Assembly: GCA_012729115.1 (NCBI GenBank) | Contig: JAAYDR010000051.1 | Location: 1 to 44,996 of the forward strand | DNA from: Clostridiales bacterium | GTDB lineage: Bacteria; Bacillota; Clostridia; Christensenellales; Aristaeellaceae | DNA: 44,996 nucleotides | Direction: 5' to 3' | Part shown: positions 12,029-33,382 of the stretch, piece by piece | Layout: every line of letters begins with the position of its first letter | Numbering within the stretch: position 1 is the stretch's first letter | Notes under the pieces: generated by a model | Told to the model about the DNA's origin: nothing | Seen by the model: only the letters and a program-made list of their open reading frames with translations | Database searches by the model: none | Position numbers and translations under genes: made by a program

Positions 12029-13048
12029 TCAGCGGTTGATATTAATTAAATCAGGCACAAGTTTGAATTTATCCTCATCAGGGCGGAAGCGGTAAACTGG
12101 AACCGTTATATGATTGGTAACTATAAACTCAAATAGGCCACTCCAATCATCTTCTCTCTGGCCAAAGAACACGCCAAGGTATATAGCACTTACACACGGG
12201 AATGGAATATATTCGATGACGTCCAGGCATACCAATCGTACCTCTTTTTCATGTGCCCATTCGTTCCCTTTGATATAGGGTGCATATGAGACACTTGAAT
12301 AATCATCATCAGGCCGAACCCGTTTGTATTCGACTTTTCGTAAGCTCCTCAATACTTCATCTTTTTGCGGATAGTCTTCGGGCAGAAGGGTTAAGTCAAA
12401 TTCGATACACATTCCGCGGTGATTTCCTCCGTAATATCCCCACATGGGTACCGAATTTTTAATTGTACTAAAGCATGCGATTCGAAGATTGTTTGAAATG
12501 GATGGGTTTTTGCTTCTGAGATCAGCATTGATTTTCTGGACGATTGATTTTGGGCCGATGAGTTTTGCAGGTATATCATTACAAATGGATGTAATGAGTT
12601 CTTCCATAGTGACAAGCGTTTGCGGCGAATAATGATCTGATAAACTGTAGCTTGATAATGCTTCCAGGAAACACGTATCAATTTCACTTTCAATTGCCTG
12701 TATAAGTCCCTTTAGCGAATTATAATGTTGCGCAGGGTTGCTTCTGCACATCCAGTCCACCGTAATGGGTGCTTTAAATGCATTATCAAGTGGATCGTTG
12801 AAACAATCTGACATTGAAACATGGATCCTGTTGTTTTTAAGTATATCAGTTGCTTTATGATGTCTTTCACAAAAATTTTCCTTACTCCCTTTTATCCCGC
12901 AGTATATATACAGTTTGCTATGACTTAAGTTTTGCTGCTCATTCACAACATCCCGGTTGTCGCTCCGGTTAGCAATCCCATTCTGTAGTGAAGCAACGAT
13001 AGTCCTGTATTGAGCCCAACCAGCCATCAGGTTGACAAGGTGATACAC
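12029..13048 (-). CDS. DUF2971 family protein
   Basis: Up to 339 residues. The family signature is clear: NDPLDNAF near residue 85, then CFSTIKNSVPMWGYYGGNH and GMCIEFD around 190-225, and a late WAHEKEVRLV. DUF2971 proteins are scattered, often seen in defence islands and phage cargo; their activity is not established. The frame opens at a GTG at 13048, with an ATG at 13027; neither has a good ribosome binding site, so the start is uncertain. Base composition is visibly AT-richer than the phage genes around it, which suggests separate acquisition. It is convergent with the gene at 11474 and divergent from the NlpC-like gene at 13285. Confidence 0.72.
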   Translation of the reverse strand: MYHLVNLMAGWAQYRTIVASLQNGIANRSDNRDVVNEQQNLSHSKLYIYCGIKGSKENFCERHHKATDILKNNRIHVSMSDCFNDPLDNAFKAPITVDWMCRSNPAQHYNSLKGLIQAIESEIDTCFLEALSSYSLSDHYSPQTLVTMEELITSICNDIPAKLIGPKSIVQKINADLRSKNPSISNNLRIACFSTIKNSVPMWGYYGGNHRGMCIEFDLTLLPEDYPQKDEVLRSLRKVEYKRVRPDDDYSSVSYAPYIKGNEWAHEKEVRLVCLDVIEYIPFPCVSAIYLGVFFGQREDDWSGLFEFIVTNHITVPVYRFRPDEDKFKLVPDLININR

Positions 13049-13227
13049 GGTTTACATCATCTCAGGGCGAACCCTTTCGGATAGATAATAGCCTCCCTAA
13101 ATGCATCAGCGTAAATCATAATGAATGGTCTTCTTAAGCCCCTGAATCTCCTGATGTCAACCACTTTCATCCCATTAGCATCACCTCTTCTCTGTATATC
13201 ACGCTCACCACACTCATTAAAATATGG

Positions 13228-13233
13228 TATAAT
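13228..13233 (+). promoter_or_regulatory. Extended -10 element upstream of the NlpC/P60-like gene
   Basis: TGGTATAAT gives an extended -10 (TGnTATAAT) 51 bp upstream of the ATG at 13285. The -35 position is poor, as is usual for extended -10 promoters. The remaining divergent gap (13049-13284) shows no other clear signal; an 82-codon minus-strand frame crossing it is probably not a gene. Confidence 0.55.
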
Positions 13234-13284
13234 GTAATCGACGCTAAATTGCACATGTTCTCTCTTTCTCTTGGAGGTGTCATC

Positions 13285-13746
13285 ATGTCGATCACAGGCA
13301 CACAATTAGCAAAAGCCGCAAGGGATGCTTACAATCAGTTCAAAGGCCAGAAAATCCCCAATCGCGGGGGAGGTTCAACACCAGAAGGATTTGACACTGG
13401 CGGATTCATCATGTACTGCTTCAGACAATGTGGCCATCCCCTCAAGATCAAGGGGACCAATGATCTGTTCCGCAGACCTCATACATGGAAAGACACGCTG
13501 GAGAACACCCGCAAAAGCAAAATGGCCGTCGATGGTGCCATAGCGTTTATCGTGAAGCACGATGGGGGTGAGCGAAAGCACAGCTATACTGATGGTGATA
13601 ACGCGGATTGTGCTGGGATTGTTTCAAATGGACAGATTATCTACTATTCTGCCACCAATGAAGCAATATGTGAGACACGCATTAACTCATCTACACGCGG
13701 GAATTGGTGGAGCCATTTTGTACACTTGAAGGATGTTTCATATTAA
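13285..13746 (+). CDS. NlpC/P60-like protein that has lost its catalytic Cys and His
   Basis: 153 residues. It aligns along its length with the N-terminal hydrolase domain of the prophage endolysin at 15975-16880. Its FDTGGFIMYCFRQCG (residues 37-50) corresponds to MDCQGLIEYLAMQCG, and its TDGDNADCAGI corresponds to NDGDASHVGA. The catalytic Cys is therefore Thr38, and the His position is Cys109. ATG 13285 follows TTGGAGGTG at good spacing; an upstream in-frame ATG at 13249 has none. No signal peptide. A non-enzymatic role (cell-wall or protein binding, inhibitor, immunity) would fit, but none is shown. Alone on the plus strand, next to DUF2971. Confidence 0.66.
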   Translation: MSITGTQLAKAARDAYNQFKGQKIPNRGGGSTPEGFDTGGFIMYCFRQCGHPLKIKGTNDLFRRPHTWKDTLENTRKSKMAVDGAIAFIVKHDGGERKHSYTDGDNADCAGIVSNGQIIYYSATNEAICETRINSSTRGNWWSHFVHLKDVSY

Positions 13747-13754
13747 CATCTCCT

Positions 13755-14354
13755 TCACCCCCTCCTTCCCACCAGTTTGAATTTTTTCAGGCTCTCGTCA
13801 ATCTCCTCCTGGATCACACCGATGTACACCAGCGTATCCCGCCGGTTGGAGTGGCCCAGGATGCGCTGCAGGCTCACCACGTCGCCGGTCATTTTGTAGT
13901 AATGATACCCAAAGGTTTTGCGCAGGGTGTGGCACCCGATGCGCTCTTCAATGCCGGCCTGTCTGGCAATGCGGTTGATGATCTGATAGGCCCGCTGCCG
14001 GGTGATGGGCCGCATAAGTTTGGTGGATGGATCTCTCTCCCGGCTCTGGAAGGCGTATTCCTCCGTCGGCCGACCGGACAGCAGCCGATTGATTTCTTTG
14101 CGCGCTGCCGGGTTGATGAGGATGCGGGCCTCCTTACCGGTTTTTTTGGTTTGTAGTTGGGCATACTCCCTGCCCCGCAGATCCCGCACCCGAAAGCGGG
14201 TGAAGTCGCTGACCCGCAGGGAGGTATTGAGCCCCACCACCAGGATCAGCTCCCAGCTCACCGAGCCCTTGCGGGCTCTCCTGTCATGGGCCCGGGCGAT
14301 GTCATAGCACACTTCCAGCACCTCCGGGTTTCGGATGGGCTGCACCACTTTCAT
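13755..14354 (-). CDS. Short tyrosine recombinase / integrase (catalytic domain only)
   Basis: 199 residues covering only the catalytic half of a tyrosine recombinase: Arg in LNTSLRVSDFTR, Lys in TKKTGKEARI, HTLRKTFGYH (H-x-x-R), LGHSN, and the nucleophile Tyr in TLVYIGV. The N-terminal SAM-like DNA-binding domain of full integrases (about 350-400 residues) is absent. Start ATG has GGAG at good spacing. It could integrate the prophage, resolve dimers or invert DNA. It lies at the distal end of the late operon, downstream of the lysis genes. Residues look intact, so it may be active. Confidence 0.88.
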   Translation of the reverse strand: MKVVQPIRNPEVLEVCYDIARAHDRRARKGSVSWELILVVGLNTSLRVSDFTRFRVRDLRGREYAQLQTKKTGKEARILINPAARKEINRLLSGRPTEEYAFQSRERDPSTKLMRPITRQRAYQIINRIARQAGIEERIGCHTLRKTFGYHYYKMTGDVVSLQRILGHSNRRDTLVYIGVIQEEIDESLKKFKLVGRRG

Positions 14355-14395
14355 GGGTTTTCATCTCCTTTGATTAAGTCAAACTAAGTAAGGCC

Positions 14396-14429
14396 AAAAA
14401 AGAAACACCCGGAGGATAGGTCATCCGGG
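14396..14429 (-). terminator. Intrinsic terminator at the end of the late/lysis operon
   Basis: On the minus strand CCCGGA / TCCGGG (6-bp stem, 10-nt loop) is followed by TGTTTCTTTTTT. It lies 35 bp after the holin stop codon and before the recombinase gene. Confidence 0.78.
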
Positions 14430-14433
14430 CGCA

Positions 14434-14472
14434 ATTCGTCTGCATTCTGATTCGTCCGGGCTGCTATTCGTC
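14434..14472. repeat. Three ATTCGTC repeats at exact 16-bp spacing
   Basis: ATTCGTC begins at 14434, 14450 and 14466. The third copy overlaps the last codons of the holin gene. The array lies between the late-operon terminator and the holin, close to the recombinase gene; recombinase or regulator binding sites are possible. Confidence 0.6.
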
Positions 14473-14910
14473 AAAGGGTGCGCCGGCTGGAGCCTCTGGG
14501 ATGTCCATGTCCTCCACGGGCAGGTCTGTCCCCGCAAATACATCAGTACCATGCCCCTTGATGTCGCAGTTGGCCTCAAGCAGCGCATCCGCAGCCTTCA
14601 GCTCCTCGGGCGATAAATCCACATTATCCACGGCCGCATAGGTCTGTACCAGGTCCAGGGCCACCTGCTTGCGTTCCTGAGCCTGAATTTCTCCAATCTT
14701 CATCATCTGTTCTGCGGCGTGGAAAGCATACGTGGCGTACAGCACAATCTTGTGAAAGAGGCCCTCCCCCTGGGAGGCCAGCGGGGCCAGGCTTTCCATG
14801 GCGTCGGTGATGGCGTCCATGTCGGTCTTTGTGAAGTACCCCTTCTTCCACAGGAAAAACAGCAGCACAGAAAGGGCCAGGGTGAGGAGAATCCAAATCC
14901 AGTCCTCCAT
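14464..14910 (-). CDS. Phage holin, LLH family
   Basis: 148 residues with one N-terminal membrane segment (about 4-21), then KKGYFTKTD and a helical region (ITDAMESLAP ... ALDLVQTYAA), the layout of LLH-family holins. The C-terminal 30 residues are acidic and proline-rich. Holins form membrane lesions that release the endolysin. Last gene of the late operon, after a second small membrane protein, and followed by a terminator. Confidence 0.78.
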   Translation of the reverse strand: MEDWIWILLTLALSVLLFFLWKKGYFTKTDMDAITDAMESLAPLASQGEGLFHKIVLYATYAFHAAEQMMKIGEIQAQERKQVALDLVQTYAAVDNVDLSPEELKAADALLEANCDIKGHGTDVFAGTDLPVEDMDIPEAPAGAPFDE

Positions 14911-14925
14911 AGGGAAACCTCCATT

Positions 14926-15195
14926 CTATCCGTTGATGTCGTCGTCTTTTGTGCCATGGCTGAACAGGTGATACCGGTTCACGAAGAATTTCTCGCTGAT
15001 GGAGTTGCCGTTGTACACCGCCACAATGCCAAAGGTGTACTCCAGAAGCCCCAGGAAGGCCTTGATCTGCTCGGTGGGGTTGTCTCCGATGCGCCACTGG
15101 GCAACAAAGAAGGCCACGTAGCCAAGGAGCAGCGCGCAGGCGGCAAACCGCTTGGAGTATTGGATGTACCGGATTTTCTTCCTTGGCTTCTTCAC
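14926..15195 (-). CDS. Small two-pass membrane protein of the lysis cassette
   Basis: 89 residues with a very basic N-terminus (VKKPRKKIRY), two membrane segments (about 20-38 and 49-66) and a polar end. The start was set at GTG 15195 because GGGAGGAGG lies just upstream; an earlier in-frame GTG at 15213 would place that ribosome binding site inside the gene. It sits between a coiled-coil membrane protein and the holin, so a second holin or antiholin role is plausible but not shown. Confidence 0.68.
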   Translation of the reverse strand: MKKPRKKIRYIQYSKRFAACALLLGYVAFFVAQWRIGDNPTEQIKAFLGLLEYTFGIVAVYNGNSISEKFFVNRYHLFSHGTKDDDING

Positions 15196-15216
15196 GGGCG
15201 TACCTCCTCCCACGGC

Positions 15217-15726
15217 TTACGCGCTATGGCACCGCTGGATGGCCTCTTTGAAGTCCTCCGGCACGCCGTTGCGCTTGCGGCCGACGGTGTACTGGTCATA
15301 AAGGCGCTGCAAACTCACCCGCTTGTGCATGGGCAGGGGAGACCCACGGATGCAGTACACCTCATAGGCCTCGTTAAGTTGCACGCTTTGCAGCGTCCCC
15401 ACCTGGTCGCTGGTTTCCTCCAGCAGGCGCAGTTGCTTGGCCTGGTCCTGCCGAAACTTCTCCATGCTCTCCCGCACCATGAGGCTGTCCTTTTCCTGCC
15501 CCTGCTGGATGGCCTGGAGCTGATCCATGGCCGATTCCATGGTTATCCGCTGGGCCGCCAGTTCCTCCGCAATGGCCTTAATGGGTGCGGCCTTCAGCTC
15601 AAGCCTGCGCCTGCGCCAGGCGCGGAACCTGGATTTTGCGCCAAAGAGAGCCACCATGGTACCGATGATGGTTCCAATTCCGGCCGCAATCCCCACTGCG
15701 CCGGGCCAAATCTGTTTCAAATCCAC
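15217..15726 (-). CDS. Phage membrane-anchored coiled-coil protein
   Basis: 169 residues. One N-terminal membrane segment (about 8-28) is followed by an Arg-rich patch (RAWRRRR) and a long predicted coiled coil (about 45-120). The C-terminal 45 residues look like a small basic domain (HKRVSLQRLYDQYTVGRKR). I do not recognise the family. Its place between the endolysin and holin genes suggests a role in lysis, for example spanin-like or holin-modulating, though a host with one membrane would not need a spanin. Confidence 0.65.
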   Translation of the reverse strand: MDLKQIWPGAVGIAAGIGTIIGTMVALFGAKSRFRAWRRRRLELKAAPIKAIAEELAAQRITMESAMDQLQAIQQGQEKDSLMVRESMEKFRQDQAKQLRLLEETSDQVGTLQSVQLNEAYEVYCIRGSPLPMHKRVSLQRLYDQYTVGRKRNGVPEDFKEAIQRCHSA

Positions 15727-15759
15727 AACTCCATGCTCCCCTTTCTGTGATGCGCTGGG

Positions 15760-15978
15760 TCACCGGGGATCGGGGGGCCCGGTTCGCTGGCCGTGGGAGA
15801 TGTCGTCGCTCTCCCGGTCCTTGAAAATCGCGCACTCTCCATCAACCACGTACCCGCAGCCCACGCAGCACTCCGGCGTCTGGCAGGGCGTCACATGAGG
15901 CCCCCGCAGGATGCAGTTGCGGCAAGAGGGGTACAGGTGGCAGAGCACGCAATTTTCGCACAGGGTTTTCAGCCTCAC
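15760..15978 (-). CDS. Small cysteine-rich protein coupled to the endolysin gene
   Basis: 72 residues from GTG 15978, which overlaps the endolysin stop (GTGA), a common coupling arrangement. It contains eleven cysteines in 42 residues, including CENCVLC, CRNC and CQTPECCVGC, a pattern that suggests two or more zinc-binding knuckles. A longer frame exists upstream inside the endolysin gene but has no start signal. No family recognised. Confidence 0.55.
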   Translation of the reverse strand: MRLKTLCENCVLCHLYPSCRNCILRGPHVTPCQTPECCVGCGYVVDGECAIFKDRESDDISHGQRTGPPDPR

Positions 15979-16880
15979 AGGCTCTTCACCCCCGCGCTGT
16001 TCAGCAGGTTCACCAGGGCCTTGGCGTTTTCCACGCTGGAGCAGGGAATCCACACGCCATAGCCGCCCGTCAGGCTGGGCACCTGGGAGGCTTCATTCAG
16101 ATCCACCGCCCCGCCGATCTGCTGCAGAAACTGGCTTGGCATCCATCCATTGACGCCGCCCCAGAATACCCTGCTTCTGTCGCCGCTTACCTCCAGCACC
16201 TGCACCGTGGCCCCGTAGGGCACGGTGGCCAGAGTTTTGCTTTCCCCGTCGGGCAGAGCCCGCAGGTAACAGCCTTTTCCATTTTGAGTTACCACCCTTG
16301 CGTCATAAAGCGCCATTTGAATGCTCACCTCCGCCGCCTGTCCTGCCGTGCCGCCTTGCAGCGCGGCAATTTTCTGTTCGATGGCCGCTCCAAAATTAAT
16401 CCACTTGGACAGCCCTACGCAGTTCCAGCCTCCATTGATGGCTTTGCCCTTGAAGGTGCTGGCAGCCACCTTCCCCTGGGAGGAAGAGGCATGCACCGCC
16501 GTGGTTCCATCCAAAAACGCCCCCACATGGGAGGCGTCGCCGTCGTTGTCCTTGTATTTGCTGTTGTATCCATCGGTGTGAATAAACAGCCACGCGCCGG
16601 GAGGGACGCTGCCGAAGGCTTTCACGCATTCCGCCACGGTTCCCCGCCATTTGCAGGTCATCCGCCAGTGGGCGTTACTCCCGGCCAGGTTCACCTGGGC
16701 TTTGGTCATGCCGCATTGCATGGCCAGGTATTCAATGAGCCCCTGGCAGTCCATGCCGTCCAGGGTCATTCCATTTGGAACATAGGGGATCTCCCATGGC
16801 GCTCGCGTGGATCTCGCCCGTCGCTCCACTTCAGCCAGCAGCGCTTTGCCGGCGGCCACATAGTCCGTGTTTTGAATCAT
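15975..16880 (-). CDS. Phage endolysin: NlpC/P60-type hydrolase, SH3-like domain and C-terminal repeat
   Basis: 301 residues. Residues about 10-160 form an NlpC/P60-CHAP-like hydrolase with Cys45 in GMDCQGL and His118 in GDASHVGAF, giving a Cys-His pair for peptidoglycan peptide cleavage. Residues about 190-255 are an SH3-like wall-binding domain (RVVTQNGKGCYLRALPDG, VNGWMPSQFL). The last 40 residues (GVWIPCSSVENAKALVNLL) look like a small sporulation- or wall-associated motif. The start was set at ATG 16880, which has AGAGGT 7 nt upstream; a GTG at 16898 overlapping the preceding stop is an alternative. No signal peptide, so release depends on the holin. Confidence 0.88.
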   Translation of the reverse strand: MIQNTDYVAAGKALLAEVERRARSTRAPWEIPYVPNGMTLDGMDCQGLIEYLAMQCGMTKAQVNLAGSNAHWRMTCKWRGTVAECVKAFGSVPPGAWLFIHTDGYNSKYKDNDGDASHVGAFLDGTTAVHASSSQGKVAASTFKGKAINGGWNCVGLSKWINFGAAIEQKIAALQGGTAGQAAEVSIQMALYDARVVTQNGKGCYLRALPDGESKTLATVPYGATVQVLEVSGDRSRVFWGGVNGWMPSQFLQQIGGAVDLNEASQVPSLTGGYGVWIPCSSVENAKALVNLLNSAGVKSL

Positions 16881-16894
16881 GGCCATCACCTCTT

Positions 16895-17119
16895 TCACTT
16901 TTCAGCCAAGTCACACCAGGCTTCAAATCGTTCGCGGATGTCAGCCTCCAGTATCTCCGTCCATGGCACACCGGAAAGGACCAGTAATTGAACAGGATAA
17001 CCTCCGCCGGGTGCACCGCGAGAATCCTGCATACGGCAGAGCTGAACAGTGCAAAGACCATCTCCGTCCCGCCGGATCTCATACCAACGATCGGGCAGTT
17101 GTGACAGTATCAGCAGCAT
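16895..17119 (-). CDS. Small unknown protein translationally coupled to the DGR reverse transcriptase
   Basis: 74 residues. Its ATG lies inside the last codons of the reverse transcriptase gene (10-bp overlap), and its stop overlaps a possible GTG start of the endolysin. The sequence has a WYEIRRDGDGLCTVQLC strand-like start and an acidic helical end (ILEADIRERFEAWCDLAEK). No family recognised. The coupling means it would be made with the RT, so it could be a DGR accessory or just a phage gene placed there. Confidence 0.6.
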   Translation of the reverse strand: MLLILSQLPDRWYEIRRDGDGLCTVQLCRMQDSRGAPGGGYPVQLLVLSGVPWTEILEADIRERFEAWCDLAEK

Positions 17120-18279
17120 GCGTCAGAGTCTCCCTCTGATTGGGCGTGGTTTCGCTGAAACGCGATGTTGTAAGCAATCCACTGCCGTATGGTGTGCCCG
17201 TTGACATGCTCCAATAAGCCGTTGTAACTCGCCATTCGTTGCATGACATCGTCATAATTCCGCCTTCCAGCGGCGTAGTCCAAAACCAGGTGCAGCAAGC
17301 TCTTTTTCATGTGCTTCACCGTGCTCTTGCGCAGGAGCATGTGGGTTGCCCATATCCGCCTGCCTACGAACGGAATCCCGTGAGAGATTGGAATGGCCGT
17401 TGTCTTCTGGTTGCACTTCAGTTTCAATCTATCCATCATGAACGACTGGAGCGCTTCCATCCACATATGAAGTGTATCGCTGTCTGGCGCGAGGATCACG
17501 ATGTCGTCCATATACCGGATGTAGTAGTGGATTTTCAACACGTGTTTTGCGTATTGGTCCACCTCGTTCATCACCATATTGGCTACTGTTTGGGAGACAA
17601 GTGCACCGATGGGAACACCTACGTCATATAGCCGTTCCTCCCGCGCAGTGTCCATGCAAGTGCGTCCATCCGGTAGTCCAAAAGGAGTATGACGGCATCG
17701 GATGATATTGTTCATGATTTGCATGAAAACCGGATCATCCACGTATTTGGACAACACGTCCAGGATCACCTGGTGATCCAGCCGGTAGAAGAACTTTGCA
17801 ACGTCAATCTTTCCGGCAGTATAGGAAGCACCGTCTGGTTTACGTCTGATCTGGTGAAGCCAGTATTGCAGGCGGGCAGCCGCTTTGTGTACGCCCTTGC
17901 CGGCCCTGCATGCGTAGCTGTCATAGATGTAGTGCTTGTCCAGGATCGGGCCAAGCACGCGATAGATGGCTTGCTGGGCGACACGGTCCCGAAAATCCGA
18001 TACATGGATCAACCTGGTTTGTGGAATATGTACATACCGTTCATGAAATAGGCCGCTTTGGTAGGAACCGGACCGAAAAGCATTTTCCAGTTGCGTCAGG
18101 TTCTCATACAGGTCATCCTCGAAGCGCAACACAGAAGCGTGACTGCGTTTTCCTTTTGCGCTTGCTCTCTCAGCCATCAGCAGGTTTTCATAGTCCGTGA
18201 TTTGATCAATCAGGTGAGTCGCCTTGACCATGCACACCTCTTCCGCCGCGCGTCGCATTTCTACGTCGGGTTTTAACAT
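17110..18279 (-). CDS. DGR reverse transcriptase
   Basis: 389 residues from ATG 18279. RT fingers/palm motifs in order: DFRDRVAQQAIY (95-106), KIDVAKFFYRLDH (157-169), the catalytic YMDD at 256-259, and the DGR hallmark IGALVSQ (224-230), which replaces the QGxxxSP of group II intron and retron RTs. It synthesises error-prone cDNA from TR RNA, misincorporating at adenines. There is no maturase or nuclease domain, as expected for DGR RTs. An open frame extends upstream through the TR to 18564, but 389 residues fits the family better. Gene order target-avd-TR-RT is a common DGR layout. Confidence 0.95.
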   Translation of the reverse strand: MLKPDVEMRRAAEEVCMVKATHLIDQITDYENLLMAERASAKGKRSHASVLRFEDDLYENLTQLENAFRSGSYQSGLFHERYVHIPQTRLIHVSDFRDRVAQQAIYRVLGPILDKHYIYDSYACRAGKGVHKAAARLQYWLHQIRRKPDGASYTAGKIDVAKFFYRLDHQVILDVLSKYVDDPVFMQIMNNIIRCRHTPFGLPDGRTCMDTAREERLYDVGVPIGALVSQTVANMVMNEVDQYAKHVLKIHYYIRYMDDIVILAPDSDTLHMWMEALQSFMMDRLKLKCNQKTTAIPISHGIPFVGRRIWATHMLLRKSTVKHMKKSLLHLVLDYAAGRRNYDDVMQRMASYNGLLEHVNGHTIRQWIAYNIAFQRNHAQSEGDSDACC

Positions 18280-18440
18280 CTTGCTGATGCTATTCCGTTT
18301 TCGCGGCGATTGATATTCATGTCCCGTTGTCTGCGGGACAACGGAAGCAGGCTCCTTTGCCTTCAACGCGCTATGCCGGAAGCCGTAGCCGCCGACTCCA
18401 TGTGGCGTGACGATGCCAATAAAGCGGGCATCGGAAGGCG

Positions 18441-18554
18441 AAGCGGGGCGCGCGCCATAGTTCGTGTTCGTGTTAGCGCGGGCGTTGTTGGAGTTCACGT
18501 AAGCCAACCCAGCGTTGGACGTGTTGTTATAGTTGCCGCCGCGCCGGGGGAAAC
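18441..18554 (-). repeat. DGR template repeat (TR)
   Basis: 114 bp, matching the VR at 19035-19148 at 107 positions with no gaps. On the coding strand it contains 26 adenines, 20 of them in ten AAC (Asn) codons, the codon type that gives wide amino-acid choice under adenine mutagenesis. It lies between avd and the RT, with 161 nt between its 3' end and the RT start; known DGRs need such a spacer to prime cDNA synthesis. Confidence 0.96.
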
Positions 18555-18585
18555 TGCGCCGCATCAATCAGCCTGCTCCCTGCAT

Positions 18586-18933
18586 TTACCGCCTGTTGGC
18601 GGGCAACGCCTTTTGAAGTCCTCCAATCAGCCTGCCGATTTCAGAGAGTTTTTCACTCCACACCCGATGCTGCTGGAAGGCAATGTAACGCCGTTTCAGA
18701 GCGTAACCCAGGTAAACCTTCATGCACAGGTTCAAATCGTCCATCTGGCGGACCGTGGTGGCGTTAAAATGACCGTTCCCGATCTTCTCTGCAATCACCA
18801 GCATGTCGTACCCGATGGAACGGATCTTTGGAACAAGGCCGCCGTTTCGTTGCGCGGCCGGAAAGTTTTCCAGCCGGTCATCCATGTACGGCAGCATTTC
18901 TTCTATCTTGTGCTTCAGTGTCAGATCACCCAT
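18586..18933 (-). CDS. avd: DGR accessory variability determinant Avd
   Basis: 115 residues, nearly all helical and basic, consistent with the four-helix-bundle Avd family (about 110-130 residues) that forms a pentamer, binds TR RNA and the RT, and is required for cDNA synthesis. Visible features: LKHKIEEMLPYMDDRLENFP, then KIRSIGYDMLVIAEKI and LGYALKRRYIAFQQHRVW, typical of the family. AGAAAGGAA precedes the ATG. It sits between the target and TR as in the Bordetella phage DGR. No damage seen. Confidence 0.9.
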   Translation of the reverse strand: MGDLTLKHKIEEMLPYMDDRLENFPAAQRNGGLVPKIRSIGYDMLVIAEKIGNGHFNATTVRQMDDLNLCMKVYLGYALKRRYIAFQQHRVWSEKLSEIGRLIGGLQKALPANRR

Positions 18934-18975
18934 GGCTTAGTTCCTTTCTCCATGCGTAAATCAGGAAAGAACGCG

Positions 18976-18997
18976 GGGCCGCGCTTCCGCGCGGCCC
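18976..18997 (-). promoter_or_regulatory. Hairpin downstream of VR, candidate DGR target-recognition cruciform
   Basis: A perfect 9-bp stem (GGGCCGCGC / GCGCGGCCC) closes a 4-nt loop that reads GGAA on the coding strand. It lies 18 bp after the target stop codon and about 38 bp after the end of VR. On the coding strand no T-run follows, so it is not a normal terminator. In the Bordetella phage DGR a hairpin of similar size and place, with a GNRA/GRNA-type loop, is needed for efficient homing. Confidence 0.75.
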
Positions 18998-19014
18998 TTT
19001 CAGTTTTTCAGGGC

Positions 19015-20238
19015 TCAGGCAGGCAGTTCCACACAAGCGGGGCGCGCGCCATAGTTCGTGTACGTGTAAGCGCGGGCGTTGTGGGAGTTCACGTAAGCCA
19101 ACCCAGCGCTGGACGTGCTGCTATAGCTGCCGCCGCGCCGGGGGAAACGTTCATCTGCCGTGAAATGCACATAGACGGTGCCAGGGGTTGTGTCTCCGCT
19201 GATGGGAAAGAGGCCAAGCTCCTTGAGGACATGCGGCACGAAGGGCACATTGGCGGCGTTCACGGCAAGGTTACTGAACGATGTGTTTCTTTGCTCGTTG
19301 TCAAACGTCGGTTCCACTGTGTCCAGTGTGATCTTGTTATTCTGCCATGTCCAGTGCAGAGTTCCTGGCGTTCCAGGCGCTACCAGGGTATATCCGTCAT
19401 TGCTCAGGTTGGGCAGGATGGCTTTCCAGTTGGTGCTGGTGGCGGAAAGGTCCGCCGCAGGATCTGCAGCGTTGTTGTCCTCCAAGATCTGTATTTCGCA
19501 GTTGACCAGGCGGTATCCATAATCCTGCTCGGCACAGTTGCCAACCAGATCCGCAATGCCATTGGGCGTGCCATCCAGCATCCAGGACATGGGGCCGGAG
19601 CCATTGATGGTATGATAGCCTTGGTATCTGCTATCAGCCACAAACTGCGACCGGTCTGCAGGGGTCCCGCCAATGTGCTCCATCCTCTGCCAGTACAGCG
19701 GGGAGGTGATGGGAAGCAGTTCGGCGCTGGTGGTATGCGCAATCAGGCACTTGTATTTCCATCCACGAAAAGTGCGAATCATGTCCACTGTCACCGACTT
19801 TGCAGGCTCCCAAGCCGTTCCATCCCGGTAATCGCAGCCCCAGTAATTGTTCCCTTTTGGGTTCCATCCGTACTTTTTGGCCAGAAGCAGAAGCAGGCCG
19901 CTTTCCGCTACTGTCTTTCCGCTGACTCCATTGCCAAAGGCACGCATGCGGGACAAGAACTGATCCGCGCCCAGAGTATGGCGGGGAGGCATGTTTGGCA
20001 AGCTGAAAAGGGTACCGTTTGCAGTCAGCTCGCATGCCTTGTACTTGCCAATCAAAATCCTGGGTAGCGTCTGTCCATTCACCTTAAATGCAGGGTGGAC
20101 ATGGTCAGGCAGGCTGCTGTCCAGCTCGCTGCTCTTGATCTGCGGGATGGGAACAAAAATGCTGGGGTTTCCGATGCTGTCGTACAGCACCACGTTTCCC
20201 AGCTGAGAAGCCAGAAATTCCAAGGGGCTCTTGCCCAT
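19015..20238 (-). CDS. DGR target: variable tail-fibre tip protein with C-type-lectin/FGE-like fold
   Basis: 407 residues. The C-terminal two-thirds match the formylglycine-generating-enzyme/C-type-lectin group in wording: GIADLVGNCAEQ (227-238, compare the FGE GxxDMxGNVWEW), an RGGSY near 366-370 and a terminal NYGARPA in place of GFR. Residues 364-401 are the VR, so the diversified side chains fall on the ligand-binding face of the lectin fold. The N-terminal third probably anchors it to the fibre. The start was set at ATG 20238 with AGGAGGT 8 nt upstream; the frame opens at a TTG at 20244. Likely role: host receptor binding by a tunable tip. Confidence 0.9.
   Translation of the reverse strand: MGKSPLEFLASQLGNVVLYDSIGNPSIFVPIPQIKSSELDSSLPDHVHPAFKVNGQTLPRILIGKYKACELTANGTLFSLPNMPPRHTLGADQFLSRMRAFGNGVSGKTVAESGLLLLLAKKYGWNPKGNNYWGCDYRDGTAWEPAKSVTVDMIRTFRGWKYKCLIAHTTSAELLPITSPLYWQRMEHIGGTPADRSQFVADSRYQGYHTINGSGPMSWMLDGTPNGIADLVGNCAEQDYGYRLVNCEIQILEDNNAADPAADLSATSTNWKAILPNLSNDGYTLVAPGTPGTLHWTWQNNKITLDTVEPTFDNEQRNTSFSNLAVNAANVPFVPHVLKELGLFPISGDTTPGTVYVHFTADERFPRRGGSYSSTSSAGLAYVNSHNARAYTYTNYGARPACVELPA
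19035..19148 (-). repeat. DGR variable repeat (VR)
   Basis: 114 bp at the 3' end of the target gene (residues about 364-401 of 407). Seven positions differ from the TR (19062, 19068, 19083, 19109, 19118, 19121, 19127) and all are TR adenines: four A to G, two A to T, one A to C on the coding strand. The products are four Asn to Ser, two Asn to Tyr and one Asn to His. The last 27 bp (19035-19061) are identical and GC-rich, as expected for the initiation-of-mutagenic-homing region. Confidence 0.96.
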
Positions 20239-20240
20239 GC

Positions 20241-20390
20241 TCAATTACCTCCTGCCATCATGTCCATGAGTTCGTTAAACTGATCCTGCGTGATTTTATG
20301 CGCCTGTAAAAAGGTGGAAAGGATATCACCCATCACTGCCGGGTCAAAACTTCCCCGTGCAATGACGCGCTTTGCGTACTGATACTCCAT
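20241..20390 (-). CDS. XkdX-like small tail protein
   Basis: 49 residues, starting MEYQYAKRVIARGSF and ending in THR-poor helical KITQDQFNELMDM. The pattern (short Y..G.F start, central FLQAHKITQDQ) resembles the XkdX family of about 45-residue proteins encoded after fibre genes in Bacillota phages. AAGGAGGAGCTCC precedes the ATG, and its 3' end carries the ribosome binding site of the DGR target gene. Too short for firm assignment. Confidence 0.6.
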   Translation of the reverse strand: MEYQYAKRVIARGSFDPAVMGDILSTFLQAHKITQDQFNELMDMMAGGN

Positions 20391-20420
20391 GGAGCTCCTC
20401 CTTTAACGGATCGTGCAGTT

Positions 20421-20831
20421 TTAGCCGCCCTCTTTTTCCAGGGCTGCCTGGGCGCTTTCATACAGCAGAAGCAATATGGCCTCATCGTGTTCTACCACAA
20501 GTTCTGCCGCTTCCCGGCGCTGTGCTGCCGCAGCGAGATAAGGAGCGATTGTTGCCTCCTCCTCCGCTTCCCGCTCTGCTTCCCACTGGGCGATTTCCTC
20601 ATCCGTTGGGTTGTACTCCGGCGGTTCGTTTTCTTGTGCTTCCTCTGCCTGAACATCGCCTGCCGGAGCCTCATCCTCCGGGAGTTCCTCCGATGTTTCC
20701 TCCACTGGAATTCCTTCTTCCGGCGTACCGTTCTCCGGTGGGTTGTCCCCATCCGGGAGGCCGTTTTCAGGCTCCTGCCCGTCTGTGGTTCCTTCTTCCG
20801 TCATGACCACTTCATCTTCCATTTCATCCAT
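20421..20831 (-). CDS. Acidic low-complexity phage protein
   Basis: 136 residues. Residues 1-85 are extremely rich in Glu, Asp, Pro and Gly with little other content and are probably disordered; residues 86-136 are helical. AGAAAGGAG precedes the ATG. It lies between the fibre genes and the XkdX-like gene. It could be a fibre chaperone or an acidic linker subunit, but no family is recognised. Confidence 0.6.
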   Translation of the reverse strand: MDEMEDEVVMTEEGTTDGQEPENGLPDGDNPPENGTPEEGIPVEETSEELPEDEAPAGDVQAEEAQENEPPEYNPTDEEIAQWEAEREAEEEATIAPYLAAAAQRREAAELVVEHDEAILLLLYESAQAALEKEGG

Positions 20832-20849
20832 GCCTGGCTCCTTTCTGGC

Positions 20850-21131
20850 TTATGCGAGGGCAGCCACAGCCGCTTGCAGCGTTGCGATTTCCTTCTGCAT
20901 TGCCCTTATTTGCATCTGAGTGGTCACAGCGAGCAGGTCATAGGCAACGCCGCAATGCTGTAACCCTTCCTCAATGTGGTTCAGGTTGGTGGCGTTTACC
21001 GGAGTGCCTGCTTGCATCACCGTGCCAGGGGACTTGGTGTGGGTAATGCTGCCGTCTGCATTGGTTGTTTCCCTCCAGGTATTGGGACGCTCCACCGCCT
21101 CATCCGTCCATTTAATCCGGTCATATGCCAT
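20850..21131 (-). CDS. Fibre-associated protein, copy 1
   Basis: 93 residues. The first 75 residues are clearly paralogous to the protein at 22319-22648: both read MA(Y/F)xRIxWTDEAVERP, then DGSITHT, GTPxxAxNxNxIEEGLQH and DLL. The C-terminus is a short helix (MQKEIATLQAAVAAL) that could trimerise. Such proteins accompany fibre genes in gut Bacillota prophages; a fibre-attachment or assembly role is likely but unproven. Confidence 0.68.
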   Translation of the reverse strand: MAYDRIKWTDEAVERPNTWRETTNADGSITHTKSPGTVMQAGTPVNATNLNHIEEGLQHCGVAYDLLAVTTQMQIRAMQKEIATLQAAVAALA

Positions 21132-21156
21132 GGTTTTCCCTCCCCTCTTTTTGCAG

Positions 21157-22305
21157 TTATGCCAGGATCACGGATTCACGGATCTGGGCGATAACTGCCG
21201 CTGTGGGCCAGCCTGGTACGGCAATCCATCCGGGCGCAGCAATACCTGCAGCGGTCAGGGATTCCTCGATGGCCGTCTGCATTGCCTCCATCTGTCCCCC
21301 CCAGGACGAAAACAGACCCATCTCGCCTGGAAGTTCGATGGCTGCCAGACCATAATAACCACGCTGGACATTCACCGCACTCAGCAGCTCCAGAATGTCT
21401 GACTGGTGGCTGATGTCCTGGTTGGAAATCACCGTGCCGGGCGTTATGTTTCTGCTCCAAACGAGAGGAACCACAATCACACCTAACGCGCACACGCCGC
21501 TAATCATCTCATGGATGTCCGTCAGGGTGTAACGGATGGTGTGCACTCCGGATGTCAGACTGGGCAACCGGTCCGTCACCGTGCCCCCTTCTCCTGGAAC
21601 AGAGGCAGCCTCTGCCCACGGGCCATCATCCACCTGTCTTTTGAGAGTCATGGCGTCCCCTTCCGGATCCGCTGGGCAAGAGAGGACCACCGAAGGCGTT
21701 TGGCTATGGCAGGCGGCCGTTCCGGACGGCCGAATCACGGTTGGTGCGCCAGGCTCTGTGTTTCCTGACAGCAGCGTGGGGCAAAGCACATACTCGCTAT
21801 AATAGTTCGATCCCGCGCTGCCACGTGTACGCGCGCGAAACTGCCGAAGTACACCGGCAGGGGCTTCTACCACAACCGTCCGGCCGCTGCTTACCTCGTC
21901 GGCTGTCCACTCTCCCCATAGGGAGGTTCCGATGGTCTGGTCCCGCCAGCTAATACCCCAGCCTTGCAGGGTGTTCAGGTCGCCTCCCGCGCCGCCGACG
22001 ATGGAAAGCACTTTGGTGTCTATATTCAGCAAGACTGCCGTAGGTGGCGTACACGGGTCCGTAACGGTCTGATAGTTGGGGGTGACGTTGGCCACATTGT
22101 ATGTGTAAATCCAGCCGCCCGGTGTGGATCCAACATGATAAAATCCATTTGATACTTCCGGGCTTCCGCTCTTCGCATAGATCATAATTTGCGCGCCGTT
22201 TTCATAAAACCCGTTCGTACCGGACGTGTTGTTCGCCTTCTTGTAGACGTAGGCATTTCCTCCGCCAACAACTGTTCCGGAATAGCTGATAATGTTTTGG
22301 GCCAT
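21157..22305 (-). CDS. Phage tail fibre / adhesin-like protein
   Basis: 382 residues, rich in Gly, Ser, Thr and Val, mostly beta. The central part (about 130-270) reads like fibronectin-III or Ig-like modules (GWGISWRDQTIG, LRQFRARTRGSAGS, TSGVHTIRYTLTD). The C-terminus is helical. GGAGAGG precedes the ATG. It lies between two paralogous small genes and upstream of the DGR target, so it is probably the fibre shaft or a separate fibre. Confidence 0.68.
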   Translation of the reverse strand: MAQNIISYSGTVVGGGNAYVYKKANNTSGTNGFYENGAQIMIYAKSGSPEVSNGFYHVGSTPGGWIYTYNVANVTPNYQTVTDPCTPPTAVLLNIDTKVLSIVGGAGGDLNTLQGWGISWRDQTIGTSLWGEWTADEVSSGRTVVVEAPAGVLRQFRARTRGSAGSNYYSEYVLCPTLLSGNTEPGAPTVIRPSGTAACHSQTPSVVLSCPADPEGDAMTLKRQVDDGPWAEAASVPGEGGTVTDRLPSLTSGVHTIRYTLTDIHEMISGVCALGVIVVPLVWSRNITPGTVISNQDISHQSDILELLSAVNVQRGYYGLAAIELPGEMGLFSSWGGQMEAMQTAIEESLTAAGIAAPGWIAVPGWPTAAVIAQIRESVILA

Positions 22306-22318
22306 GTCCTACCTCTCC

Positions 22319-22648
22319 TTACCGAAAAAGTGCGTTATCCAAATATCGCCCTCCCAGATCCACGCCGTCTTCCGTCAGTACGAAGGTGGAGCTGAACTGA
22401 AGCTGTTTCTCCTCCAATTCCCGTGCCTTCATTTGCTGTGTGACCTCCAGCAGGTCGTGTGCAATGCTCAAATGCTGCAGCCCTTCTTCGATGCGGTTGA
22501 AGTTGGAAGCGCTTTGCGGGGTCCCTTCCTGCAGAACCTCCCCATGAGCTTGGGTGTGGGTAATGCTTCCGTCTGGGTTGACGGCCTCTTCATAGGTTTC
22601 TGGCCGCTCCACCACTTCGTCTGTCCACTGAATGCGCTCAAATGCCAT
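22319..22648 (-). CDS. Fibre-associated protein, copy 2
   Basis: 109 residues, paralogue of the protein at 20850-21131 over its first 75 residues. Its C-terminal 30 residues differ (FSSTFVLTEDGVDLGGRYLDNALFR). The two copies flank the 382-residue fibre gene, which suggests a tandem module duplication. The ATG follows a G-rich stretch (GGGGGG) rather than a classic ribosome binding site. Confidence 0.68.
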   Translation of the reverse strand: MAFERIQWTDEVVERPETYEEAVNPDGSITHTQAHGEVLQEGTPQSASNFNRIEEGLQHLSIAHDLLEVTQQMKARELEEKQLQFSSTFVLTEDGVDLGGRYLDNALFR

Positions 22649-22662
22649 GGTATCGTCCCCCC

Positions 22663-22968
22663 CTATGCTTCGGTAATGGTGAAGCGGAAGCGGTATAGGA
22701 TCCCTTCCTGAGCATCCGCCCTGTTGATGCTTTCCGCCTTAGAAGCGATCAGCTGGTTGTTGTAATCATAGAGCTGAATCTCCGTTACGGTGATGTTGCC
22801 AGTCACGGCATGGTCAATGATGATGGTAATGGAAATTCTTCCGTCTGCCAGCAGTGTCTTTTCCGTGATCTCTGCCGGATAGTAGCTGCCTCCCACTCTG
22901 TACTGGGCGCGGGCAATTTTGTTCTTCAGGTGATTCCGCAGCCCGTCCAGCGCCAAAACTGTAAGCAC
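22663..22968 (-). CDS. Phage tail protein of unknown role
   Basis: 101 residues from GTG 22968, which has AGGAGG 8 nt upstream. A longer frame starts at 23007 inside the tail-protein-I gene but has no ribosome binding site. Predicted beta-rich with TVTEIQLYDYNNQLIASK near the centre, typical of small fibre-proximal proteins encoded after tail protein I. No domain named. Confidence 0.65.
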   Translation of the reverse strand: MLTVLALDGLRNHLKNKIARAQYRVGGSYYPAEITEKTLLADGRISITIIIDHAVTGNITVTEIQLYDYNNQLIASKAESINRADAQEGILYRFRFTITEA

Positions 22969-22996
22969 CGTCCATTCCTCCTTGTGTGCGTCTGAT

Positions 22997-23779
22997 TTAC
23001 GCCCCACAGATCACCGTACCGCAAGACTGGTACATGATTCTGGTTTGCGTTGGTTCTATGGAAACAAGCACAGTCTGGCTGCCCTGGGCGGCCACTGTGC
23101 TTGGGTTGGGCCTGGTGCCTGTCCTTGGAAACGGACAGCGATAATCCTGGGCGTGGCTTTGAATCTCCAAGGTAACGTCCCGTATCCGACCCACCTGGTT
23201 CCGCCCGGGAACGGTGCCGGACCGAAGGCGTTCTCCCGTAATGCGATACACCGCTCTGCCGTTTGCTTCCCCATCGCCCTCCACCACGATTTTATGCATG
23301 CACCCAACTGAGAAGTCATCCAGCACGGAGCGTGCGTTTTTGGCAGCGGTGATGGCCCTTCGTGCCCAGGCTTCTTTGTCGCTCGTCCACTCCTCTCCAG
23401 AGGCTGATACGCGAAAGTGGAAGGGCTCCCCGCCATACAGGCTGCTCTCTTCCACCTCTGCGGTGAGGAACAGCCCCTCCAGGTAGTTGAGAATGGCCTG
23501 GGGTGTACCCAGCACCCGGTCATAGAGTAACGCTGCCTGTATCCACCGCCGCTTTGCGGTCAGATCACCATTGTGGTCATACATGCAGCCCAGTTCCCAG
23601 GCCATTTCATCCAGCCGCCAGATGGGCATGTCCTCTACGTTGGACAAGGTAGCCAGCCCTGTGTCCATCACCGCGTCCATAGCCCGCAAGCCTGCTTCCA
23701 TGGCTTTGGCAATGGCATATCCGTTCTTGTCCCGCAGGAGAAACCTTGGAAACAACTGTTCTATTTTAAACTCCATCAT
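22997..23779 (-). CDS. Phage tail protein I (baseplate, P2 gpI-like)
   Basis: 260 residues. The N-terminal part (LFPRFLLRDKNGYAIAKAMEAGL ... LSNVEDMPIWRLDEMAWELG) matches the Tail_P2_I family, which joins the baseplate to the fibres. The ATG at 23779 overlaps the stop of the baseplate J gene (ATGATG), so the two are translationally coupled. The C-terminal half carries extra beta-rich sequence and ends in CGTVICGA. Confidence 0.82.
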   Translation of the reverse strand: MMEFKIEQLFPRFLLRDKNGYAIAKAMEAGLRAMDAVMDTGLATLSNVEDMPIWRLDEMAWELGCMYDHNGDLTAKRRWIQAALLYDRVLGTPQAILNYLEGLFLTAEVEESSLYGGEPFHFRVSASGEEWTSDKEAWARRAITAAKNARSVLDDFSVGCMHKIVVEGDGEANGRAVYRITGERLRSGTVPGRNQVGRIRDVTLEIQSHAQDYRCPFPRTGTRPNPSTVAAQGSQTVLVSIEPTQTRIMYQSCGTVICGA

Positions 23780-24888
23780 GGTTCCATCACCGCCAATGTG
23801 ATGGTGCCTAGGCAACGCTTGTCCGGGTCGATGCGGGTGTATTCCACACTTCCGCCTGCAAAATGGCTTTCCGGTCCATAAATCACCCTGGACACACCCG
23901 CTCTATACAGGTTGGCGGTCAGCCGATCCGGGTTAAAAGGGCGCCCAACGGACAGATCCTGCCAGTCCTTGTATTCCGATACGGCGGCCTGCAGCGCTGC
24001 GGTGATGTCTCCCTCGGCGTCCTCCTCCACGGCATAGAGAATATGCAGCGCGTATGGAATGGCCTCCGCCTCTTGTACAGTGACGGTATCTGTCAGCGGG
24101 CGCACGTCCGAAGCAGACAGCGCTTGTGCTACAGCTGCGATGGTGGCGGCAGCCCCCTCTGTGTTTCTCAAAATCAGGTACATACCAACCTGACCGGCCC
24201 CCAGGTTCAGGGCTCTGGCATCCACAATCTCGCTGGTAGCAGCCTTGGCTGCTGCCTCGTACTGACGGGATGGGCCGGTGGTGATGGCGGCTAACCCGTT
24301 CAGCCGGATTCGCTCCCGATAGGTGTCGTCATCTTCCCGTTCCGATCCTCCCGTGGTTTCCGCAATGACCACAACACTGACCACGGCCGGGTGGGTGATG
24401 GCCAGTTGCATCTGTGTGCCGGCGGCTACACCGTTCCCCTGGCTTCCAGGGTCCTTGCAGAGTATGTCTGTGTCGAGCACCTGGGCATGGCCCGTGTGGG
24501 TCACAGGATTCACCAGCAGATAGAAGCGCTCACCGTCTGGCGTCATGGCTGTGCCGGCGGGAAAAGTTTTGGTTGCACCGGTGGGAACGAAGGTGATGCG
24601 CACCTTTCCTGCGGCGGCGTTTGCCTGGATGCGCGGGCAGTTTCGGTTTTCACCGTAGATGTCAAGGTATTCCCCCTGGGCATAGCGCAGGGTCTGCATG
24701 CGCAGCGCATTGTCCACGGCGGCAAAGGTCTGAGTCAGCACCGCCTGTACGCCCCGCAGGAGGATCTCCTTTTCGTCTCCGGGATAGAGCACGTCTCCGC
24801 CGGCATCCACGTAGGCGGCGATCATCTCCCGCCATATTTCATCCGGGTCATAGGTCAGATAGTGTAGTTCCTTGTCTGCCACCGCCAT
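23776..24888 (-). CDS. Baseplate J-like protein
   Basis: 370 residues. The family features are visible: LLRGVQAVLTQTFAAVDNALRMQT near residue 45-70, LDIYGENRNCPR, a beta-rich middle (TFPAGTAMTPDGERFYLL), and the TTGGSEREDDDTYRERI hinge. Baseplate J proteins form the wedges that attach around the hub of contractile tails. ATG 24888 overlaps the gp25 stop (TGATG) with GGAGAG just upstream. Confidence 0.92.
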   Translation of the reverse strand: MAVADKELHYLTYDPDEIWREMIAAYVDAGGDVLYPGDEKEILLRGVQAVLTQTFAAVDNALRMQTLRYAQGEYLDIYGENRNCPRIQANAAAGKVRITFVPTGATKTFPAGTAMTPDGERFYLLVNPVTHTGHAQVLDTDILCKDPGSQGNGVAAGTQMQLAITHPAVVSVVVIAETTGGSEREDDDTYRERIRLNGLAAITTGPSRQYEAAAKAATSEIVDARALNLGAGQVGMYLILRNTEGAAATIAAVAQALSASDVRPLTDTVTVQEAEAIPYALHILYAVEEDAEGDITAALQAAVSEYKDWQDLSVGRPFNPDRLTANLYRAGVSRVIYGPESHFAGGSVEYTRIDPDKRCLGTITLAVMEP

Positions 24889-25208: not shown

Positions 25209-25226
25209 GGTGCACCTCCACCCTGG

Positions 25227-31894: not shown

Positions 31895-33382
31895 TTACGG
31901 GGCCTGGAAGAAGGTCACAAAGCCCTCATCCGTCCAGTTGACGATGGCAGTCAGGCTCTTGGCCAAGGGCGTGGTGGTCACGTCAAACAGGAAAGCATGG
32001 TCGCCGTTCACCATGTCGCTTGCGGCGTCCTCCTGGGCCAGGATGGTCACGCGCCCGAAGGTCAGCGCTCCCACCCGCACCAGGCCGTCCAGCCTTGCCT
32101 GCTCCTCCGCCACGATGCTCTTGATGTCATTCAGCGTCATGGGCTTGTCCACGCTCTTCCCGCGCCTGTGCTGGAAGTCGTTGCTGATGTAGAACAGCAT
32201 CATCCGGTTGGTCTCGGCGATGTTCAGCCGGTCGGCCGCAGAGGGGCCGTAATCGGCGGAATGAGCGCCCCACAGAGCCCAGCGGCCGCCCACAAACGCG
32301 GCGGACGCAATGCCATTCTTGTTAAGGTGCTCGTTGATGGCCTCATCGTCCAGCATCACGTTTCCGCTGTCCTCGCCCAGGTACAGGTTCTGGATGATGG
32401 GGCAATCGGTGTTGGAAGGAGTCTTGTAGGGGATATCGTCCTGCTGGATCAGCAGCTCCTGCAGATTGGCCGCCGCCAGCACAGACAAGTGGTACACTTT
32501 CCCGTCCGTGCCCTTGGCCAGGGGGAAGAACACCGTCTCATGCTCCTTGTTGAAGCCGTTGGTCTGCCGCCAGGTGTTTGCCGAGGAAAGGGAGATGGCA
32601 GAGCCGTCCGCGGTGATGGGAAGATCCGCGTACACATAGGCATCCCAGTGGCCGTTGATCTTCTGGGCCGCCTGCACCAGCGCGGTATGCACGGCAGGCA
32701 GGCTGCCAAAGCCCGGGCACAACAGGAAGGATGGGATCCTGCCGGTGGCCTGGTACACGTTCTTCACGGCGTAAATGCCGGTGCTTAAACCCGCCCCGTC
32801 GCTGGCCCCGATCACATCCTCCGCATCCACGGCCGTGGCGTCAATCAGGTCATAGGTGATGGCCAGGGCGGCGCTGCCCAGGGCTCCGGTGGTCAGCTCC
32901 GCAATGGTAATCACGCCTTTGGCCGGGTCATAGGCGATGGCGTAGTCCACGCCCTTTTGCTTGGTAACCGGGTTCTCGCCGCTGGTTTTCACTTCCACGC
33001 TGTCCAGAATGATGCTCTGGGCAGCGGCAATGGTAATGCGCCCGTTTGCGGGGGTCAGGTTCTGGGTTCCGCCCTGTGCCGCCGTATGGACCTCCGGGTC
33101 CAGCACGTTGATGAACACCAGGGGGGCCACCCCTTTCTGTTCCAGGTGCACGTGCATGGCCTCGCACAGGGTGTACTTTGCCCAGTCGCTGGAATAGCCC
33201 AGGTACTTCTTCGCCTCTGCGAAGTTTTGAATCAGCAGCGGCTTGTTCACGTTGGCAGCGCCCCCGGGCACGGTATGCACGGGAGCGGTTCCGATGTAGA
33301 CGATGGCGTTCCGGCTTTGCTGGGCCACTTTGGTGCCCGCCGTCTGGATTCTGCCGTACGCGCCATGAAGGTATTCAGCCAT
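31895..33382 (-). CDS. Phage tail sheath protein
   Basis: 495 residues. It has an N-terminal AYIGT-like start (NAIVYIGTAPVHTV), the PLLIQNFAEAKKYLG segment, a variable outer domain, and a C-terminal domain with RLNIAETNRMMLFYIS and WTDEGFV, all typical of the contractile sheath family. This shows a myophage-type tail. AAGGAGG precedes the ATG. Confidence 0.92.
   Translation of the reverse strand: MAEYLHGAYGRIQTAGTKVAQQSRNAIVYIGTAPVHTVPGGAANVNKPLLIQNFAEAKKYLGYSSDWAKYTLCEAMHVHLEQKGVAPLVFINVLDPEVHTAAQGGTQNLTPANGRITIAAAQSIILDSVEVKTSGENPVTKQKGVDYAIAYDPAKGVITIAELTTGALGSAALAITYDLIDATAVDAEDVIGASDGAGLSTGIYAVKNVYQATGRIPSFLLCPGFGSLPAVHTALVQAAQKINGHWDAYVYADLPITADGSAISLSSANTWRQTNGFNKEHETVFFPLAKGTDGKVYHLSVLAAANLQELLIQQDDIPYKTPSNTDCPIIQNLYLGEDSGNVMLDDEAINEHLNKNGIASAAFVGGRWALWGAHSADYGPSAADRLNIAETNRMMLFYISNDFQHRRGKSVDKPMTLNDIKSIVAEEQARLDGLVRVGALTFGRVTILAQEDAASDMVNGDHAFLFDVTTTPLAKSLTAIVNWTDEGFVTFFQAP

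Follow-up and report, generated by a model that had tools for sequence, protein, structure and literature searches.

A complete diversity-generating retroelement in a contractile prophage

The DNA analyzed here, called the window throughout, is a 44,996-nucleotide stretch from a Clostridiales bacterium of the family Aristaeellaceae (assembly GCA_012729115.1, contig JAAYDR010000051.1, positions 1 to 44,996). Its minus strand carries a diversity-generating retroelement (DGR) in which a target gene with a variable repeat (VR) inside it is followed by a potential hairpin, avd, the template repeat (TR), a spacer, and the gene for a reverse transcriptase (RT) (Table 1). Adenine misincorporation, retrohoming, and an initiation of mutagenic homing (IMH) element are general features of the mechanism of DGRs. 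A preliminary description of this DNA, made from its letters alone, had proposed a complete DGR here, and we found RT, Avd, TR, VR, and target all intact. We are close to certain that this is a prophage-borne DGR of the BPP-1 kind. Computed here were the parts of the element and its phage surroundings, the adenine-only differences between TR and VR, the predicted fold of the target, and the potential hairpin.

Table 1. Features of the DGR and of the surrounding prophage, in window positions
Feature	Position	Strand	Basis or remark
DGR overall	17110-20238	minus	target (VR inside), hairpin, avd, TR, spacer, RT
DGR target, TaqVP-type C-type lectin (FGE subtype), 407 aa	19015..20238	minus	5vf4 match, predicted structure
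CBM5/12-like (chitin-binding-like) insert in target	19681..19815	minus	about residues 142-186, 45 residues
VR	19035..19148	minus	near 3' end of target gene, encodes C-terminal part
Possible DNA hairpin/cruciform	18976..18997	minus	9 bp stem, loop GGAA, 37 nt past VR
Avd accessory protein, 115 aa	18586..18933	minus	PF22296 bAvd, phrog_3206
TR	18441..18554	minus	114 bp, aligned to VR
Spacer between TR and RT	18232..18440	minus	probably 3' part of template RNA
DGR RT, 373 aa	17110..18231	minus	PF00078, phrog_1423; probable start ATG at 18231
Phage integrase (tyrosine recombinase)	13755..14354	minus	PF00589, 77 bits
Two baseplate genes near DGR	22997-23815, 23776-24891	minus	phrog_14404 and phrog_6
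Tail sheath	31895..33382	minus	phrog_23, E 7e-48

TR and VR align over 114 bp with no gap and seven mismatches (four A to G, two A to T, and one A to C). All seven fall on TR adenines, which make up 26 of its 114 bases, and the chance of this for randomly placed mismatches is 1.6e-5. At the protein level, seven Asn have become Ser, His, or Tyr in the VR (target residues 371, 373, 374, 377, 386, 391, and 393). Adenine changes could alter 16 codons of the TR, 10 of which are AAC, and stop codons are out of reach for all 16. The VR ends 17 nt ahead of the target stop codon, and the GC-rich 3' end is the same in TR and VR through the end of the repeat; it is at this 3' end that IMH and IMH* differ in BPP-1. 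A DNA search with the TR through the genome that the window comes from (124 contigs, completeness 95.9%) returned the TR itself, the VR, and one 72% match that is part of a second DGR, with no further VR for the window TR.

The RT matches PF00078 with 62 bits and phrog_1423 with an E of 1e-118. RTs of the DGR group carry a YxDD and an SQ motif, and the YMDD and IGALVSQ named in the preliminary description are both present, the former by alignment and the latter by a motif check. In a tblastn search of phage records, the best-ranked RTs were those of BalMu-1 (43.9% identity) and Lagaffe (42.8%), with BPP-1 brt lower down at 33.2%. Among PDB sequences, the best chain was 8ub7 (E 9e-48, 167 bits, with the runner-up at 48 bits), which we take to be the BPP-1 RT and whose length of 328 is that of brt. 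An RT from outside the DGR group is ruled out by this top similarity to DGR RTs in both collections, and the profile match and nearest relatives, which are phage DGR RTs, agree with the earlier assignment. Since our RT tree of 19 rows has few outgroups and open forks, we draw the assignment to the DGR group from similarity and context. The proposed Avd was borne out by PF22296, at 41.6 bits narrowly over the cut-off of 40, and by phrog_3206, "Avd protein of DGR" (E 4e-13).

The potential hairpin has a GC stem of 9 bp and a GGAA loop that fits GRNA, and none of 300 mononucleotide shuffles equalled it. According to the excerpted text of PMC3240598, such a hairpin or cruciform is needed for homing in BPP-1, and phage DGRs have in common a GC-rich stem of 7-10 bp with a GRNA loop, located 4-34 bp past the VR. 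At 37 nt, the hairpin in the window lies just beyond this range. In 54 of the 71 relatives with a TR/VR pair (described below), a GRNA-loop hairpin is the best one within 80 nt past the VR, as opposed to 5 of 1,420 shuffled stretches. The structure could also be a transcription terminator, a reading against which stands that no clear T run follows it.

The start of the RT

A long open reading frame (ORF; 17110-18567, 485 aa) takes in the TR in frame with the RT, which raises the possibility of a real fused protein joining a lectin-like, TR-encoded N terminus to the RT. The frame is indeed open from 18567 to 17110, the phrog_1423 alignment begins at residue 5 of the long ORF, and L038, one of the relatives, keeps its RT frame open across the TR except for 2 nt. 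That relative is the exception: in 11 of the 12 other elements examined that have a TR/VR pair, the open RT frame starts after the TR. Moreover, in the closest relative (L031, on the same contig as L045), with an RT 67-68% identical to ours, there is a TR, the frame is broken on the way from there to the RT, and the ATG that opens the RT ORF aligns to window position 18231. We consider a fusion protein extremely improbable and rejected it on this broken frame.

The conservation pattern leads to the same place. Between the window and L045, the spacer is identical at 156 of 206 aligned bases (4 indel columns), compared to 153 of 372 third codon positions of the RT, whose identity by codon position is 0.77, 0.83, and 0.41. 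What appears to be conserved in the spacer is therefore the nucleic acid (DNA or RNA) and not an encoded protein, which fits a template RNA. Together, these comparisons indicate that the RT probably starts near 18231 and that the upstream part of the long ORF is probably not RT coding sequence.

The target is a predicted C-type lectin with a chitin-binding-like insert

By sequence, the target matches 5vf4 (TaqVP; E 1.2e-39) and phrog_2889 (E 6e-75), gives a weak match to the tail protein family phrog_5302 (E 1.6e-5), and has no Pfam family at E 0.001. We modeled its structure from an alignment of 69 sequences, comprising the window, two elements from its host family (L032 and L033), and 66 targets from the 71 loci in which a TR/VR pair was detected. 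Of these 71 targets, three were outside the length limits, and two near-copies were dropped from the 68 that remained. This model has a mean predicted local distance difference test score (pLDDT) of 92.6 and a predicted template modeling score of 0.90, and it supersedes a first model from nine sequences that was poor in places (pLDDT 71.5). In Foldseek, it matched three 5vf4 chains with E 3e-35 to 1e-33, template modeling (TM) scores of 0.76-0.83, 30-31% identity, and root mean square deviations (rmsd) of 3.5-4.4. The C-type-lectin/FGE-like target put forward earlier thus agrees with the predicted model; the Pfam FGE-sulfatase family is matched at E ≤0.1 by 55 of the 69 targets, the window's not among them. 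In this predicted C-type-lectin fold, the VR sits at the C terminus.

The target contains an insert that resembles the chitin-binding domain of chitinase A1 (1ed7). The match is at E 0.013 by sequence, and Foldseek gives a TM of 0.81 by 1ed7's length, an rmsd of 1.6, and 36% identity, but an E of 0.024. Against Pfam CBM_5_12, the insert misses the curated cut-off (15.6 bits vs 26.2). This family is matched at E ≤0.1 by seven of the 69 targets including the window's, with a best E of 1.3e-5, and by alignment the insert is present in 10 of the 69, again including the window's. Searches of open-license literature listed no paper with a title or abstract opening that describes a chitin- or carbohydrate-binding part in a DGR target.

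The prophage around the DGR

The DGR lies beside two baseplate genes, and a tail sheath gene is present, in line with its earlier placement in the tail module of a contractile prophage. Profiles of a contractile phage include phrog_23 (sheath), phrog_6 (baseplate wedge), phrog_1533 (tape measure), phrog_21 (portal), and phrog_15 (terminase), and further neighboring genes encode the major head protein and a protease. The DGR is flanked on its opposite side by the integrase and a lysin candidate, whose NlpC/P60 and SH3_3 matches are both slightly below the Pfam cut-offs. There is no tRNA gene in the window, and the search for attachment sites covered short repeats inside two end regions, each taken by itself. 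At 12029-13048, 0.7 kb from the integrase gene, a DUF2971 protein matches the candidate phage-defense family PDC-S31 (E 2e-25).

VR variation among relatives of the element

We searched genome contigs for related loci by RT alignment, which gave at least 437 stretches encoding a relative, and kept the best 80. Among these 80, the closest named relatives are mostly Clostridia from gut or rumen samples, and L045 lies on a contig from a genome of the host family, which makes Clostridia the likely hosts. In a set of relatives whose RTs were aligned, identity to the RT of the window is 33-43%, apart from L031 at 68%. A TR/VR pair was detected in 71 of the 80 loci. Of the mismatches in these pairs, 934 of 957 fall on TR adenines, a figure that leans upward because the scan counts non-adenine mismatches more heavily and demands that 70% lie at adenines.

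Variation of the VR over a constant TR was compared across 73 loci (these 71 plus L032 and L033). The TRs of 18 pairs reach 93% identity or more, and in 11 of these pairs they match fully over the compared stretch. In nine of the 11, stemming from five groups of loci, the VRs differ at 10-15 of 16-28 adenine positions and at 0-1 of 57-96 others; in the other two, the VRs are identical. The seven pairs whose TRs are 2-7 differences apart have VRs that differ at 9-15 adenine and 2-7 non-adenine positions. Over the 300 nt preceding the VR, L094, L099, and L100 show 0-1 differences, which makes their VR conspicuous as a hypervariable segment. Similar prophage DGR regions, with stretches 93-98% identical, occur in L032 and L033, which come from two genera of the host family; they share one TR, and their VRs have 12 differences, at adenines only. 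Three related RT loci (L050, L051, and L052) occur in one genome, that of Anaerovorax sp. IOR16, where L051 and L052 have identical TRs and VRs and different upstream DNA (68 of 300 positions), and L050 gave no pair. The preliminary description had held that the element may be active, which adenine-biased VR variants over a constant TR would support. Such variants, nearly confined to adenines, were found among relatives of the element that have identical TRs. The natural adenine variation shown by our comparison is thus that of the wider group of relatives and not of the window copy.

Some observations weigh against reading the window element as a DGR of the BPP-1 kind. Its Avd scores 40.3 bits with the NCBIfam Avd model, whose cut-off is 80. 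Among the relatives, the best hairpin lacks a GRNA loop in 17 of 71, and nine of 80 gave no TR/VR pair, five of them having 4-1292 bases upstream of the RT and four having 5 kb. The VR in the window has changed at 7 of 26 adenines (0.27), below all 71 relatives (0.31-0.91) and thus the lowest of 72. In addition, searches of phage records, viral contigs, the genus, and the family found no near-identical copy of the element. Within these searches, a megablast of window positions 12000-32000 against phage records had no match; viral contigs held no close relative by RT, by target, or by TR patterns; 16 other genomes of the genus had one RT only, distant at 31% identity; and the closest RT in 308 genomes of the family was at 67%.

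The low fraction of changed adenines, and the lack of variant copies in viral contigs by RT and TR patterns, would be in keeping with a DGR that is complete but silent or decaying, with its parts intact, its last retrohoming old, and selection now keeping one VR. Such an element is at odds with RT, Avd, and target ORFs that are all open, with an RT that looks constrained when compared by codon position to L045, and with a VR that has accumulated seven amino acid changes and zero stops; the low count may reflect a single homing event with few mutations. We consider a silent or decaying DGR unlikely. Somewhat less so, and still improbable, is that the variable protein serves as an adhesin for mucus or other particles and not as a host-range tip. 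The CBM5/12-like insert hints at polymer binding, and the DGR target of another gut phage is likened to a mucus-adherence protein in the part of PMC11792537 available to us. Nevertheless, the target lies between baseplate and lysis-type genes, as it does in Lagaffe, where it is annotated as BPP-1-tropism-determinant-like, and its match to phrog_5302, weak as it is, is to a tail protein.

Proposed function of the element

In the BPP-1 kind of DGR that we favor, the avd-TR-RT transcript would be the template, which, going by the known mechanism, RT and Avd would copy into complementary DNA (cDNA), misincorporating opposite adenines. This cDNA would then take the place of the VR, with the hairpin and the GC-rich 3' end common to both repeats marking the site, and so make the 16 codons of the lectin end changeable while the TR stays unchanged. 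By analogy, the target is probably an adhesin on the tail or baseplate of the virion that touches the bacterial surface with its variable face; a candidate location at the fiber tip and a role in host range are suggested by BPP-1 and other phages. The fixed chitin-binding-like insert might, speculatively, hold polymers containing N-acetylglucosamine (GlcNAc).

Target and RT differ in their divergence

The window was compared with seven other insert-bearing elements, to which its target body is 53-67% identical and its RT just 39-44%. Among those seven (21 pairs), RTs are 58-85% and targets 47-92% identical, or 58-67% and 47-65%, respectively, when the near-copy pair L113/L121 is set aside. The TR, which sides with the target, is 71-80% identical to those of the seven and 81-82% identical to those of L040 and L045; these nine plus two near-copies are the 11 best TR matches of 74 compared. 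For Avd, a comparison that has no within-group control, unlike those of RT and target, the matches to that of the window are weak, five of the seven at E 4.2e-4 or better and the other two at E 0.005 and 0.013, one of them away from the VR. In trees of 30 hand-chosen rows, the target groups the window with the seven other insert-bearing elements (Shimodaira-Hasegawa-like approximate likelihood ratio test support of 100, insert columns left in), and the RT tree places the window with weak support (66/33).

The RT is thus far more divergent than the target and TR, and the RT/Avd cassette may have been swapped. Fast RT evolution also fits, and recombination is not proven because the RT tree leaves the window's place open. 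Tentatively, and with the odds somewhat against it, we propose a two-handed DGR adhesin of a Clostridia phage family, with a fixed CBM5/12-type binder of a GlcNAc-rich polymer within a hypervariable lectin; in the window's phage, the RT and Avd that drive this target and its TR would have been exchanged from another DGR lineage.

Other reverse transcriptases in the same genome

A second, unrelated DGR was found in the same genome (contig C57, 6932-10482). It has a TR at 8264-8125 and a VR at 8512-8373 that align over 140 bp with 11 of 11 mismatches at A, an RT of 323 aa with VGFYISP replacing the SQ motif, and a tail-protein target (8344-10482). No Avd match was found among the nine proteins scanned there, which are a subset of the ORFs. 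On the same contig, at 383-1912 and about 5 kb from the RT of this second DGR, lies a DRT4 anti-phage RT (PADLOC, E 5e-200).

Comparison with known DGRs

The DGR of Bordetella phage BPP-1 (brt, avd, and mtd) has the same order of target, VR, gene, TR, and RT on one strand, and its gene between VR and TR, bbp7, is presumably avd. Its RT is 33% identical to that of the window. It differs in its target, since the window's is nearest TaqVP and Mtd structures match it weakly (E 0.024 and worse), and the phage in the window is contractile. According to the excerpt of PMC3240598, BPP-1 also has a GRNA-loop hairpin after the VR, at the shorter published distance given above, and TR/VR differences at A only.

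Faecalibacterium phage Lagaffe resembles the window in having P2-like baseplate genes, a target, an Avd-like gene, an RT (42.8% identical), an endolysin, a holin, and further on an integrase, and differs in its tropism-determinant-like target annotation. The related candidate prophage Lagaffe_CP has two variable regions as described in the same portion of PMC11792537, compared to the one VR found for the window element. TaqVP from a Thermus aquaticus prophage (5vf4), a DGR variable protein with a solved structure, has the fold predicted for the window's target along the chain; the excerpted PMC6328139 describes it as single-domain, whereas the target in the window has the extra CBM5/12-like insert.

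DGRs in phages of gut Clostridia have already been described, and the window element is one more case. Three DGR clades are almost wholly viral, mostly in phages predicted on gut Firmicutes, Bacteroidetes, and Proteobacteria and mostly with tail targets, as stated in the accessible part of PMC8144416, and Faecalibacterium prophages are DGR-rich and partly active according to that of PMC11792537. If the two-handed adhesin with an exchanged RT and Avd were real, DGR engines and targets would be swappable as separate modules. To what is known, our analysis adds a TaqVP-type phage target modeled with confidence, chitin-binding-like insert included, natural VR variation nearly confined to adenines across a wider group, and a mismatch between target and RT divergence that can serve to test how freely DGR engines and targets recombine.

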